From positions 5,961,501 to 6,025,500 of the forward strand of contig NZ_CP020104.1 in the NCBI RefSeq assembly GCF_002056795.1: a stretch of DNA of 64,000 nt, given 5' to 3'. The stretch comes from Spirosoma aerolatum. Lineage in GTDB: Bacteria > Bacteroidota > Bacteroidia > Cytophagales > Spirosomataceae. Shown piece by piece: positions 49,742 through 52,659 of this stretch. The notes under the pieces were generated by a model that was not told the DNA's origin, searched no databases, and saw only the letters and a list, made by a program, of their open reading frames with translations. How positions within the stretch are numbered: the stretch's first letter is position 1; each line of letters begins with the position of its first letter. Position numbers and translations under genes: made by a program.

Positions 49742-50404
49742 ATGAAAGCTGTAATTTTTGATATGGATGGCGTGCTGGTCGATACCAACCCACACCACCG
49801 GATTGCCTGGGGCGAATATTATCAACGAAATGGGAAAAGCCTGAGTGATGACGACTTTGTTCAGTATGTTTCTGGGAAACACAACAAAGATATAGTCGCT
49901 CATTTGTTTGCCAATCAACCACTTACTCATGAAGAAATCCTCCGGCTGAGTAACGAGAAGGAAGCCCTGTTTCGGGAGCTATATAGCCCGGTGATTACAC
50001 CCGTCGCTGGTTTAATCCCATTCTTACAAGCCCTTCAATCCGCCGGTATTCGGATGGCGGTAGCGACCTCGGCCCCTGCTGAAAATTTAGATTTTGTCGT
50101 CGACACGCTGAATATTCGGCCCTATTTCGACGCCTTACTCAACGAAAGCATGGTCAGCCATCCCAAACCCGATCCGGAAATTTACCAGAAAGCCATGGCT
50201 ATGCTTGGCGTTGAACCTGCCGAAAGTGTCATTTTTGAGGATTCGATGACGGGCATTCAGGCGGCTAAGGCGTCGGGAGCAACCGTAGTTGGCATGGCTA
50301 CCACCCAAACGCCCGACGAGTTACGCCCATTCGTAGACGACACGGCCCATGATTTTACCGAATTAAACCTTGACCGCATCCAGCGGCTAGTTAAAGTTTT
50401 TTAG
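49742..50404 (+). CDS. HAD superfamily phosphatase, beta-phosphoglucomutase-like
   Basis: A 220-residue HAD hydrolase. Asp7 and Asp9 form the nucleophile pair in FDMDGVLVDTNPHH; a helical cap follows; motif 2 is in MAVATSAPAENL; and motif 4, in PKPDPEIYQKAMAMLGVEPAESVIFEDSMTGIQAAKASGATVVGM, carries the lysine and acidic cluster. Similar proteins are beta-phosphoglucomutases or 2-deoxyglucose-6-phosphate phosphatases; the sugar cannot be specified. Its stop meets an AT-rich region downstream. Confidence 0.88.
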   Translation: MKAVIFDMDGVLVDTNPHHRIAWGEYYQRNGKSLSDDDFVQYVSGKHNKDIVAHLFANQPLTHEEILRLSNEKEALFRELYSPVITPVAGLIPFLQALQSAGIRMAVATSAPAENLDFVVDTLNIRPYFDALLNESMVSHPKPDPEIYQKAMAMLGVEPAESVIFEDSMTGIQAAKASGATVVGMATTQTPDELRPFVDDTAHDFTELNLDRIQRLVKVF

Positions 50405-50612
50405 AAAAGGAGGACTTTAATTATCATAATAAGTTTTCTAAAGATATAGTTGTTTTTCAACTCCATCTGGTTTACTAGTAGAGCTATATCCGATAAAAAC
50501 TTTGAAAAATCTGTAGCGTCTATTATATTTGTATCAACAGTACACGCCACGCTACCCATAAGAACAGCGTCCCAGGGCGTGTCTTTTGCTTTTATAAGCA
50601 ATCTCCACTGCT
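50401..50612 (-). other. Antisense open frame opposite the abi leader
   Basis: A minus-strand frame of about 70 codons (TTG or internal ATG start) ending at TAA 50401-50403, reading KQWRLLIKAKDTPWDAVLM... LSDIALLVNQMELKNNY. It looks protein-like, is AT-rich like the abi gene and overlaps the predicted abi promoter and leader. It may be a remnant, a small protein or chance. Low confidence. Confidence 0.25.
50501..50531 (+). promoter_or_regulatory. Promoter of the Abi_2 gene
   Basis: TTTG at 50501-50504 and an exact -7 box TATATTTG at 50524-50531, spacer 19 bp. Start of transcription is expected about 50537-50540, leaving a leader of about 100 nt before the ATG at 50641. Confidence 0.65.
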
Positions 50613-50613
50613 T
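50538..50613 (+). ncRNA. Structured leader, candidate antitoxin RNA or attenuator
   Basis: A hairpin of 12 bp with a 5-nt bulge: ACACGCC-ACGCT (50542-50553), 12-nt loop, AGCGT (50566-50570), bulge CCCAG, GGCGTGT (50576-50582). It is followed by the U-rich CUUUUGCUUUU (50583-50593), so it looks like a terminator, and by a smaller hairpin AAGCA/TGCTT (50596-50613). A structured RNA between the promoter and a HEPN-type toxin gene recalls RNA-antitoxin systems. Function is inference only; no expression data. Confidence 0.45.
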
Positions 50614-50640
50614 TTCAAGTATATTTTATGAGCTATATAC

Positions 50641-51549
50641 ATGTATAATAAAGGGGCTCTTACAATAGAACAACAAATCAACCAATTAAAAGAGCGTGGA
50701 TTAAAGATCACTGAACAGGATAACGCATCTCATTTCCTTAGTCAAATTAGTTATTATAGATTAGCTGGCTACTGGTGGCCAATGCAGGAAGATAAAGTAA
50801 CTCATACGTTTAAGCCTAATAGCCGCTTTTCGGATGTAATTGCACTGTACGACTTCGATAGGAAATTAAGAATACTACTATTCGATATTATCGAAAAGAT
50901 AGAAATAAGCTTAAGGACAAAATTAATATACCATCTATCAAATGACGAAGACCCTTGGTGGTTCCAAAATACAAGCTTATTTCAAAATACCAGTGAGTTG
51001 GTTAAATCTCTTTTTATACTAGACGAAGAGATCGAACGCTCAAAAGACATATTTATTAAAGAGCACAAGAGAAAACATAAAGATGACTTACGATTCCCTC
51101 CTGCATGGAAAACTCTTGAGCTAACAAGCTTCGGCAGTTTATCAAGATTATATGGTAACCTTAAAAATAACATCAAGGCTAAAGACACAATAGCTAAAGA
51201 ACTTGGTACAGTTAATCATACTTTTTTACCTAGCTGGCTCCAGTCTATTGCTCAAATAAGGAATTTCTGCGCTCACCATAGCAGACTATGGAACCGAAAT
51301 CTACCAGGTAAACCTAAGCTACTGCCAAATCCTCCCAATCGATGGATTAAGGATATACCTAAGGAAAATGAATTCCCTATGCTGTATGTGCATTTATGCT
51401 GCATGAAATATCTATTAAATGTTATAGACCCTGAGAACCAATTTAAGGAAAGATTGGCAGGGCTACTGGTAGAATACCCAAACGTTGACCCTAATGCTTT
51501 AGGCTTAAAACCTGATTGGCAGAACGAACCTCTGTGGAATAAAGTATAG
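50641..51549 (+). CDS. Abi_2 family (AbiF/AbiD-like) HEPN-type protein
   Basis: A 302-residue cytosolic protein. The family opening is QQINQLKERGLKITEQDNASHFLSQISYYRLAGYWWP and the core is FSDVIALYDFDRKLRILLFDIIEKIEISLRTKLIYHL. Near the C-terminal third, RNFCAHHSRLWNR (residues 207-219) gives a HEPN RNase motif, Arg207-x4-His212. Abi_2 proteins are phage-abortive-infection or toxin-like RNases. The gene is visibly more AT-rich than its neighbours, which fits acquisition. It has its own promoter and structured leader and no protein antitoxin partner. Confidence 0.85.
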   Translation: MYNKGALTIEQQINQLKERGLKITEQDNASHFLSQISYYRLAGYWWPMQEDKVTHTFKPNSRFSDVIALYDFDRKLRILLFDIIEKIEISLRTKLIYHLSNDEDPWWFQNTSLFQNTSELVKSLFILDEEIERSKDIFIKEHKRKHKDDLRFPPAWKTLELTSFGSLSRLYGNLKNNIKAKDTIAKELGTVNHTFLPSWLQSIAQIRNFCAHHSRLWNRNLPGKPKLLPNPPNRWIKDIPKENEFPMLYVHLCCMKYLLNVIDPENQFKERLAGLLVEYPNVDPNALGLKPDWQNEPLWNKV

Positions 51550-51876
51550 AGACCTAGATCTCATAATTCACGTTAAAGCAGGCATTTAAGAAACCCATTT
51601 TGATATGGCTGATATGTATTTTACTTAGCATTTTCGAATTCATCTATCTCGGCTTTCAATTAAAGCTGTAAGCTTCTGACAGTTTCAATCTAGGATGAAA
51701 CTACAACTTAAAGTTTTTTAACAGCATTGAACAGGAGGAATCAGTATTTTTGCTGATTCCCACATCAGAAAATGGGTTGTCATTTGTGGCCATAATTAGT
51801 CGTAACCCGAAAGACAGACCATTAAACCTTACTTGATTAGCCTAGTCAAAACCAAACACGTATTATTCGGTTCGCG
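51550..51876. other. Intergenic region downstream of the Abi_2 gene
   Basis: 327 bp without a convincing gene. It holds a perfect 8-bp hairpin, GGAATCAG (51737-51744) with CTGATTCC (51753-51760), and a 6-bp pair GTTTCA/TGAAAC further upstream. It may contain the end of the acquired insert and the promoter of the next gene. No -7 box of good quality was seen. Confidence 0.4.
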
Positions 51877-52659
51877 ATGCTCAAACAACTCCTTTTTTGT
51901 CTTTGTCTGGTTGTATTGATCAGTAAATCAGACACCGTATGGGCTCAAGGGAAATACGTAATTGGAACGGTCATTGATCAAACGACCCAAAAAACAGTCG
52001 ACAAGGTTTTTGTCGTGAATCAACGCACGCGGCAACGGGCTCGTACCAACGCATCAGGACGATTCTTTTTGACAGTACAACCCGGTGATTCACTGATTCT
52101 TACCAGCCAGCTTTACAACAGAGTCGGTATTCGGTATGATGGTTCCGATAACCCAACTATCGTTGCCAAAGCCCTCCCTCCTATGCCCTACCGTGTGGTC
52201 GATCTAGACGAAGTAACGGTAACCGGGAAACGCTATGAAGAAGTAAAGCGGGAAATCAAAGAATTACTCGACGAGCCTGTGGCCACCAAGAAAGTGAGTG
52301 GCGAACAGGCATTCGATCGCATTGCTGACGGTGCAGGTGTCACCCTTCTCTACGAAGTGTTCGGCAAACGCCCAAAGTCGGACAGAAAAGCATATTATAT
52401 CATGCAACAGGACCGCCGTCATGAACTAGCCCTCGAACGCTTCCGGCTATTGGTTGAACAATCGACCAACCTGAAAGCCGACGAGATCGACCGCTTCTTC
52501 GATTTCTGCGACCTGGACGAAGATTTCCTGCTCAAATCTGAAGACTACGATTTGATCAATACCATTCAGCAACTTCGGAGCCGTTACCGCCAGGGAATGA
52601 CGCGCCCCAGCCGACTGGCCCCCGATCCTAATCAGTCGGCGCCAAAGCCTCGTCCATAG
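51877..52659 (+). CDS. Carboxypeptidase-regulatory-like secreted protein
   Basis: A 260-residue exported protein with a signal peptide ending VWAQ. The first roughly 90 residues form a beta-sandwich resembling carboxypeptidase-regulatory-like domains (GTVIDQTTQKTVDKVFVVNQRTRQRARTNASGRFFLTVQPGDSLILTSQ), as seen at the N-terminus of SusC-like proteins, and VVDLDEVTVTGKR. The rest is helical with acidic phrases (FFDFCDLDEDFLLKSEDYDLI) and no known family. Its last 32 bp overlap the end of the converging MOSC gene. Confidence 0.75.
   Translation: MLKQLLFCLCLVVLISKSDTVWAQGKYVIGTVIDQTTQKTVDKVFVVNQRTRQRARTNASGRFFLTVQPGDSLILTSQLYNRVGIRYDGSDNPTIVAKALPPMPYRVVDLDEVTVTGKRYEEVKREIKELLDEPVATKKVSGEQAFDRIADGAGVTLLYEVFGKRPKSDRKAYYIMQQDRRHELALERFRLLVEQSTNLKADEIDRFFDFCDLDEDFLLKSEDYDLINTIQQLRSRYRQGMTRPSRLAPDPNQSAPKPRP

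Follow-up and report, generated by a model that had tools for sequence, protein, structure and literature searches.

The window, a 64,000-nt stretch of the Spirosoma aerolatum genome, carries on its forward strand a single open reading frame of 302 aa (50641–51549, +) that Pfam, PADLOC and PDB matches identify as an abiF/abiD (Abi_2) HEPN ribonuclease toxin gene. The encoded protein scores 195.8 bits against Abi_2 (Pfam PF07751; cut-off 25.6), is labelled AbiD by PADLOC, and is the only Abi_2 match genome-wide (a single contig of 7.96 Mb). At E ≤ 1 the PDB yields a single match for it, 8vz6 (E 8.5e-58; window protein residues 12–299), which a figure legend in a review describes as the PbAbiF-ncRNA complex (PMC12737573). 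An initial annotation of the window had claimed an intact HEPN RNase motif (Arg207-x4-His212) and the absence of a protein antitoxin gene. Indeed, R207-N-F-C-A-H212 is present (51259–51276, +) and aligns with R210/H215 of PbAbiF, the double mutant of which is reported to be inactive (PMC12373285), and the R, N and H of the RNxxxH pattern are invariant in 60/60 aligned AbiF proteins, the window protein included. The neighbouring genes encode a HAD hydrolase and a carboxypeptidase-regulatory-like protein and are both also found in relatives, in keeping with the claim that no protein antitoxin is encoded here.

Upstream of the toxin gene, TTTG (50501–50504, +) and TATATTTG (50524–50531, +) are separated by a 19-nt spacer and form the promoter that had been proposed from the sequence; going by the Bacteroidota promoter consensus, we take them to be −33- and −7-type boxes. 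The second box stands exactly 4 nt ahead of a conserved RNA, and after these 4 nt comes AACAGUAC. Sigma-70-like sites were near chance as a bare pattern (9 against 4.9 expected, sd 2.2), and that consensus does not cover Bacteroidota. The RNA (50536–50592, +) is 57 nt long and matches our model R1 with 89.4 bits, which is the score of a training sequence. Its hairpin occupies 50542–50582, exactly where a 12-bp bulged hairpin had been described, and is supported by the fold and by covariation. It consists of a 7-bp outer stem (ACACGCC, 50542–50548, paired with GGCGUGU, 50576–50582), a 5-bp inner stem (ACGCU, 50549–50553, paired with AGCGU, 50566–50570), a 12-nt apical loop, ACCCAUAAGAAC (50554–50565), and a 5-nt 3' internal bulge, CCCAG (50571–50575), all on the plus strand. 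A U-rich tract, likely an attenuator, follows the stem (50584–50593, +): CUUUUGCUUUU stands right after the 3' arm of the hairpin, and UCUUUU, made up of the stem end and the U-rich tract, does not vary among the 21 host copies in alignment A3 (see below).

The hairpin folds at −19.1 kcal/mol (z −3.24; 1/200 shuffles as good), and we exclude chance on the strength of these shuffles and of the element's presence ahead of the toxin gene in 17/17 close homologues. For the whole 105-nt leader, the advantage over shuffles is only moderate (z −1.99; 10/200 as good). The initial annotation had called the leader terminator-like, a claim favoured by the conserved U-rich tract but not by the bare terminator-like pattern (50567–50580), which is at chance level in the window (1 found, 0.9 expected). 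A smaller second hairpin is found in the window's leader as described (50587–50600), but is not conserved among the homologues' leaders. The main hairpin itself is a conserved antitoxin-type RNA rather than just a terminator.

A scan of genome contigs gave 35 loci related to the window AbiF, and the leader alignment comprised the window and its 17 closest homologues with a full gene (L001–L017, 62–77% protein identity); L039, a closer relative known only in part (86% over residues 140–299), lay outside this comparison. By record title, the 17 homologues are Bacteroidota, an Ignavibacterium MAG (L015) and a Limnohabitans MAG (L004), bearing in mind that MAG labels can be wrong. The 57-nt element is present in all 17 leaders with its spacing to the promoter box kept, and the sequences on both flanks are unalike. 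A further locus cut by a contig end (L034) also carries the RNA, and L035 carries a damaged part of it. In A3, an alignment of 21 host copies made with MAFFT and not fitted to any structure, 99.1% of the cells are paired, and there are 15 double-change cells against a shuffle mean of 4.5, a value reached in 0/500 shuffles. Shifting the pairing partner by 1–3 columns destroyed this signal. The double changes fall in only 3/12 pairs, a count reached by 35/500 shuffles, and the number of further pair types in A3 is no higher than in shuffles. A covariation check on homologous leaders had been suggested alongside the initial annotation, and its outcome is a structure that is both conserved and covarying. 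The promoter box is conserved as well: TAnnTT[TC]G stands at this distance from the RNA in 22 of the 27 copies examined from hosts, and the remaining five differ by one letter. This count covers the 21 copies of A3 and L018, L021, L024 and L040–L042, and leaves out other R1 matches, e.g. L003:1489, L020 and L022:2942. The apical loop varies among host copies, being longer in L004, L007 and L009–L011 and one nucleotide shorter in L008. We had also considered mimicry of the tRNA-Met anticodon loop by the apical loop, and dropped this idea because the homologues differ there (CCGUUAG in L015, CCUUAAG in L014).

Across 395 genomes of the window's class, R1 gave 21 matches in 19 genomes. An Abi_2 frame lies on the strand of the RNA within the 3-kb locus in 16 cases (two in two pieces, one partial), and the other five loci (L239, L241, L253, L254, L257) are without Abi_2 in the same 3 kb. 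L239, L253, L254 and L257 are chromosomal toxin-less copies, which could be remnants or trans-acting antitoxins. At L241 (1–1600, minus strand), the window-class RNA is accompanied by a second, RF03085-like hairpin (by eye, below the Rfam cut-off), no Abi_2 is found, and an HsdR gene (HSDR_N) comes after the hairpins. In Sphingobacterium nematocida (L003:1–3903), a stretch of 3.9 kb holds three Abi_2 genes, one of them cut by the locus end, and each has an abiF-type RNA leader of its own, all different. In L041, a relative of the window's genus, a group I intron match (767–982) lies approximately 440 nt upstream of the abiF-type RNA.

We next compared the RNA with the abiF RNA family of Rfam, RF03085 (37-bit cut-off). 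This family gave no match to the window at gathering or at E ≤ 10, an Rfam search of the leader at E ≤ 10 returned only chance-like matches, e.g. a plant microRNA, and RF03085 at gathering had no match in L001–L020. It does match L025, L026, L030, L031 and L023, the first four of which are nearest to PbAbiF among the 35 related loci, and it was found in 7/295 genomes of the window's class, with an Abi_2 homologue at 6/7 loci. The seventh locus, L050, has an RF03085 RNA and no Abi_2 homologue within 2.4 kb. RF03085 has a 6-bp stem, a 1-nt bulge, a 3-bp stem, an 11-nt loop and a 6-nt 3' bulge. The window RNA resembles it in its nested stems, one-sided 3' bulge, similar size and position upstream of Abi_2, but the apical loop is CUCUCAACGAU in RF03085 as opposed to ACCCAUAAGAAC in the window. 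R1 scores some RF03085-class members weakly (E 0.0019 for L023, 0.0066 for L025, 0.007 for L026, 0.049 for L049 and 0.57 for L030) and gave no score on the others. Given the shared architecture and these weak scores, the two classes are therefore probably one superfamily with two loop types, and the window RNA is best read as belonging to an RNA class that Rfam does not contain.

For the most part, loop type goes with AbiF clade. When 60 AbiF proteins were placed on a tree (39 labelled with the new loop, 13 with the Rfam loop, 6 with both, 2 unknown), the loop label changes 10 times compared with 19.5 times in shuffles (0/200 as low), a clustering that is inflated by near-copies among the 60 proteins. 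Labels were assigned manually to L002, L004, L007, L009–L011, L019, L027, L028, L032, L038, L045, L244, L256 and L258, and by regular expressions to the others. One AbiF subclade mixes loops (L023, L043, L049 versus L245, L246, L255), and some leaders, e.g. those of L051 and L252, contain one element of each loop type in tandem.

The promoter, the RNA and the toxin gene together make up an inserted unit of 1,317 bp (50404–51720), delimited by its absence from relatives. A 13-bp direct repeat, TTAAAGTTTTTTA, lies at its left border (50391–50403, +), inside the 3' end of the HAD hydrolase gene, and again at its right border (51708–51720, +), at a spacing of 1317, so that the unit includes one repeat copy. 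The GC content is 35–37% in 500-nt windows across 50500–51999, compared with about 45–55% in the flanks. Among 19 relatives of the genus that were fetched, none has Abi_2 at the HAD locus. The HAD and carboxypeptidase-regulatory-like genes are less than 175 bp apart in 17/19; in L273 they are separated by 871 bp without an Abi_2 match, and in L284 the HAD locus was fetched and the carboxypeptidase-regulatory-like gene was not seen. The nearest relative, L272 (97% protein identity for HAD, 99.6% for the carboxypeptidase-regulatory-like protein), has TTAAAGTTTTTTA once in the stretch examined and no unit. We noticed no transposase frame within the 1,317 bp. The simplest reading would be that the unit was gained in the window's lineage, the alternative being loss across the repeats in all relatives; the earlier suggestion that the AT-rich insert was acquired fits well with a low-GC, repeat-bounded unit that relatives lack.

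From these features, it is very probable that the window contains an AbiF-kind, type III-like RNA toxin-antitoxin unit of the abortive infection type. Judged by sequence, the toxin gene is preceded by a putative RNA gene, and this in turn by a promoter. Between the RNA and the toxin lies the conserved U-tract, but a terminator pattern only at chance level. Tandem repeats like those of ToxIN are absent, as no direct repeat of at least 12 nt was found within the leader; single RNA units are also the state of most AbiF leaders examined. The earlier reading of an RNA-controlled Abi_2 toxin is supported by a covarying structure in the leaders of 17/17 close homologues, and what it stated on small-RNA control of AbiF and on the link to the origin of Cas13 was correct (PMC12373285, PMC12165695, PMC12737573).

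Two related systems have been described. PbAbiF-AbiFr (8vz6; Zilberzwige-Tal et al., Cell 2025, as cited in PMC12373285 and PMC12737573) has a full-length related HEPN toxin with R and H at the same places as in the window protein, and PbAbiF is reported to be bound by its own small RNA. It differs in that PbAbiF has 35% protein identity to the window AbiF and belongs to a separate AbiF clade. Moreover, its nearest relatives (L025, L026, L030, L031) carry RF03085-class RNAs whereas the window has another loop and bulge, a comparison that is made through the RNAs of these relatives. For AbiFCd-RCd22 of C. difficile phi027, PMC12373285 describes a leader RNA, a shared promoter, premature termination with read-through, and neutralisation of the toxin by the RNA. 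There, RCd22 has two RF03085 motifs and a separate terminator hairpin, as opposed to one motif of another loop class in the window.

By analogy, a short RNA would be transcribed from near 50536 off the TAnnTTTG promoter, with most transcripts ending in the U-rich tract and a minority reading through into abiF. The inner stem, loop and bulge of the RNA would bind AbiF and block its HEPN site, as expected from PbAbiF and AbiFCd. This neutralisation step rests on the AbiFCd-RCd22 and PbAbiF literature, where RNA-protein binding and neutralisation are reported (PMC12373285, PMC12737573). Upon phage takeover, depletion of the RNA could then release free AbiF dimers that cut RNA and stop growth.

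We also found the RNA on viral contigs. A first pattern for IMG/VR, which left the outer stem free but prescribed the bulge, the inner stem and the greater part of the loop, matched 57 contigs, and the same pattern reversed as a control matched 0. A second pattern with 12 loop bases left free gave 36 matches, 9 of them new, for a total of 66 viral contigs, which represent 19 sequence clusters and not 66 independent cases. Under this second pattern 27/36 loops fit ACCCNTNAGANC and 34/36 do so within one change, and loop conservation therefore goes beyond what this pattern imposed. R1 scores all 66 loci, with 67 matches. A whole-record search for PF07751 found 0/66 (0/36 and 0/30), many of these records being fragments and none of the 66 being classed as at least 90% complete; in the control for this search, both L259 and L260 were found (2/2). 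Ten large proteins were picked from the viral contigs, and 7 of them belong by their matches to phage families with a known function (portal, large terminase, primase, helicase, ribonucleotide reductase). RF03085 was over its cut-off at none of the 9 class-A viral loci searched. One viral RNA (L074:7165–7221) scores 89.4 bits like the window copy and has its own TAnnTTTG box, with no Abi_2 in the record. INPHARED, searched with the window RNA and one phage copy, gave no match, and so we found no named isolate with the window loop class.

Alignment A4, which contains 49 distinct viral rows and leans to the model to which it was aligned, has 98.1% of its cells paired and 69 double-change cells against a shuffle mean of 16.1 (0/500), spread over 5/7 outer pairs. 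Compensatory outer-stem changes of this kind point to selection, and the viral loci thereby show toxin-less copies under structural selection, as would be expected of a phage mimic, with the reservation that the alignment is model-fitted and many records are fragments. In addition, 34/66 viral loci have a tRNA gene within 150 nt, compared with 4.1 expected at random places (9.95 versus 1.36 when weighted by the 19 sequence clusters). A tRNA occurs in the stretch examined at 40 loci, and in 40/40 the RNA and its closest tRNA share a strand; 24/66 viral copies start no more than 2 nt from the 3' end of a tRNA ("down" at distance 0 in our tRNA table denotes overlap with that end). No tRNA was seen in the stretch examined at 26/66 loci, so the tRNA link is frequent and not general. 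Second abiF-type loop motifs on the same strand within 400 nt are enriched, with 11 in 50.2 kb versus 10 in 528 kb elsewhere, though found by motif and stemming from 4/19 clusters; this motif count was used in place of a strict second-hairpin descriptor, which fitted 1/66 viral loci.

RNAs with the Rfam loop occur in phages as well. An RF03085-like pattern was noisy (at least 120 viral stretches, 80 of them listed; 69 for the reversed control), and we therefore rely on the covariance model: among 50 whole records searched from the 80 listed, RF03085 was found at E ≤ 0.001 in 42/50 and over cut-off in 32/50, and PF07751 in 0/50. A stem of at least 5 bp, present in 64/80 listed loci, was rejected as a measure, since by our estimate so lax a test would also admit about 3 in 10 matches that arise by chance. 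In INPHARED, an RF03085-like query at E ≤ 10 matched 62 records, of which 8 were fetched. Five of these are over the RF03085 cut-off (S-CREM1, Thibault, PZL-Ah8, PZL-Ah152, CGphi29); Caulobacter RW, Pseudanabaena Pan2 and a faecal clone were discarded as carriers, being below the gathering score, and PF07751 was found in 0/8. In PZL-Ah8 and PZL-Ah152, which are T7-like Aeromonas phage isolates (Studiervirinae), the RNA has the head-to-tail connector gene on one side and the capsid assembly gene on the other. A loop-only viral scan, itself noisy, gave a good outer stem in 31/67 new loci among the matches listed, with Abi_2 in the stretch at 1/31 of these (L340). Some viral contigs do have both RNA and Abi_2, among them L259 and L260, where the RNA is upstream of the gene, and L340, where both are in the stretch.

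A plausible explanation for the stand-alone phage copies, often in tRNA clusters, is that they act as decoy antitoxins against AbiF, and our analysis inclines us to favour it with some caution. The argument for decoys is one of logic, backed by a precedent from ToxIN, the toxin family of which is unrelated to AbiF. ToxIN likewise combines an RNA antitoxin with an RNase toxin, and the pseudo-ToxI RNA of phage phiTE is reported to mimic this antitoxin and neutralise the toxin (PMC3475682); it differs in that the window's antitoxin RNA is without tandem repeats and the phage copies often lie beside tRNA genes. A second parallel is the abiF sRNA of the lytic cyanophage S-CREM1 (L263), an RF03085 RNA located between tRNA genes (PMC9964418). 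This is one phage with the Rfam loop, and the available text of PMC9964418 mentions three phage genomes in Rfam, and neither an AbiF gene in the phage nor a decoy proposal. In our literature search, this was the one report of an abiF RNA in a phage that makes no mention of an AbiF gene, and neither AbiF RNA decoys in phages nor the window loop class turned up; Zilberzwige-Tal et al. (2025, Cell) may contain either.

The phage copies could instead reflect a general phage or host element, e.g. one belonging to tRNA clusters, that was merely captured by AbiF, in which case they would not be decoys. Their frequency and common position beside tRNA genes agree with this, as do the 42/50 pattern-chosen viral records with RF03085 and the 0/50 with PF07751. 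We nevertheless consider it unlikely, as 16/21 host model matches adjoin Abi_2, 22/27 host copies have their own promoter box compared with 3/66 viral copies, and the loop type tracks AbiF clade. That the phage copies are unselected remnants of lost AbiF modules is less probable still: the outer-stem compensatory changes, the placement beside tRNA genes, the loss of the host promoter box, and the Rfam-class RNA between structural genes of T7-like Aeromonas phage isolates all argue against decay, even though some viral contigs have RNA and Abi_2 together (L259, L260, L340) and a few toxin-less host copies exist. Also improbable is a leader that serves purely as a cis attenuator of the HEPN gene (a conditional terminator or riboswitch-like element) and binds no protein, for although the stem is followed by a conserved U-rich tract and the C. 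difficile abiF RNA is reported to act also in cis by termination (PMC12373285), the loop and bulge letters are conserved beyond a terminator's needs, phage copies occur without Abi_2 in the record and in several cases without a U-tract (by eye), and the relatives PbAbiF and AbiFCd reportedly bind their RNA.

Returning to the decoy reading, we lean slightly towards a broader version of it, in which stand-alone AbiF antitoxin RNAs of several loop classes are spread among phages, some of these being large, rich in tRNA genes and presumably infecting Bacteroidota. Many of the RNAs would lie in tRNA clusters from which tRNA processing would cut them free. This would amount to a widespread RNA-only counter-defence against AbiF, with tandem hairpins of different classes covering different AbiF clades. 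If the phage copies are decoys, antitoxin RNA mimicry would be a common phage strategy and not a special case of phiTE, it would be invisible to protein-based anti-defence screens, and there would be evidence that AbiF matters in nature. Cas13 is held to descend from AbiF and its RNA (PMC12737573, PMC12373285). An RNA class missed by Rfam, with a loop type that for the most part tracks AbiF clade, offers natural pairs and swaps for studying RNA discrimination by AbiF, and telling its own RNA from others would be the step that was later turned into guide binding.

Lastly, two minor observations concern the viral records. We noticed tmRNA genes on contigs with a toxin-less abiF RNA (L112:3066–3244, L053:9275–9667 and L104:841–1227), one of which is permuted, and in a faecal phage clone (L266:3350–3413) a DUF3800-VIII RNA lies approximately 300 nt from a weak abiF-like match.
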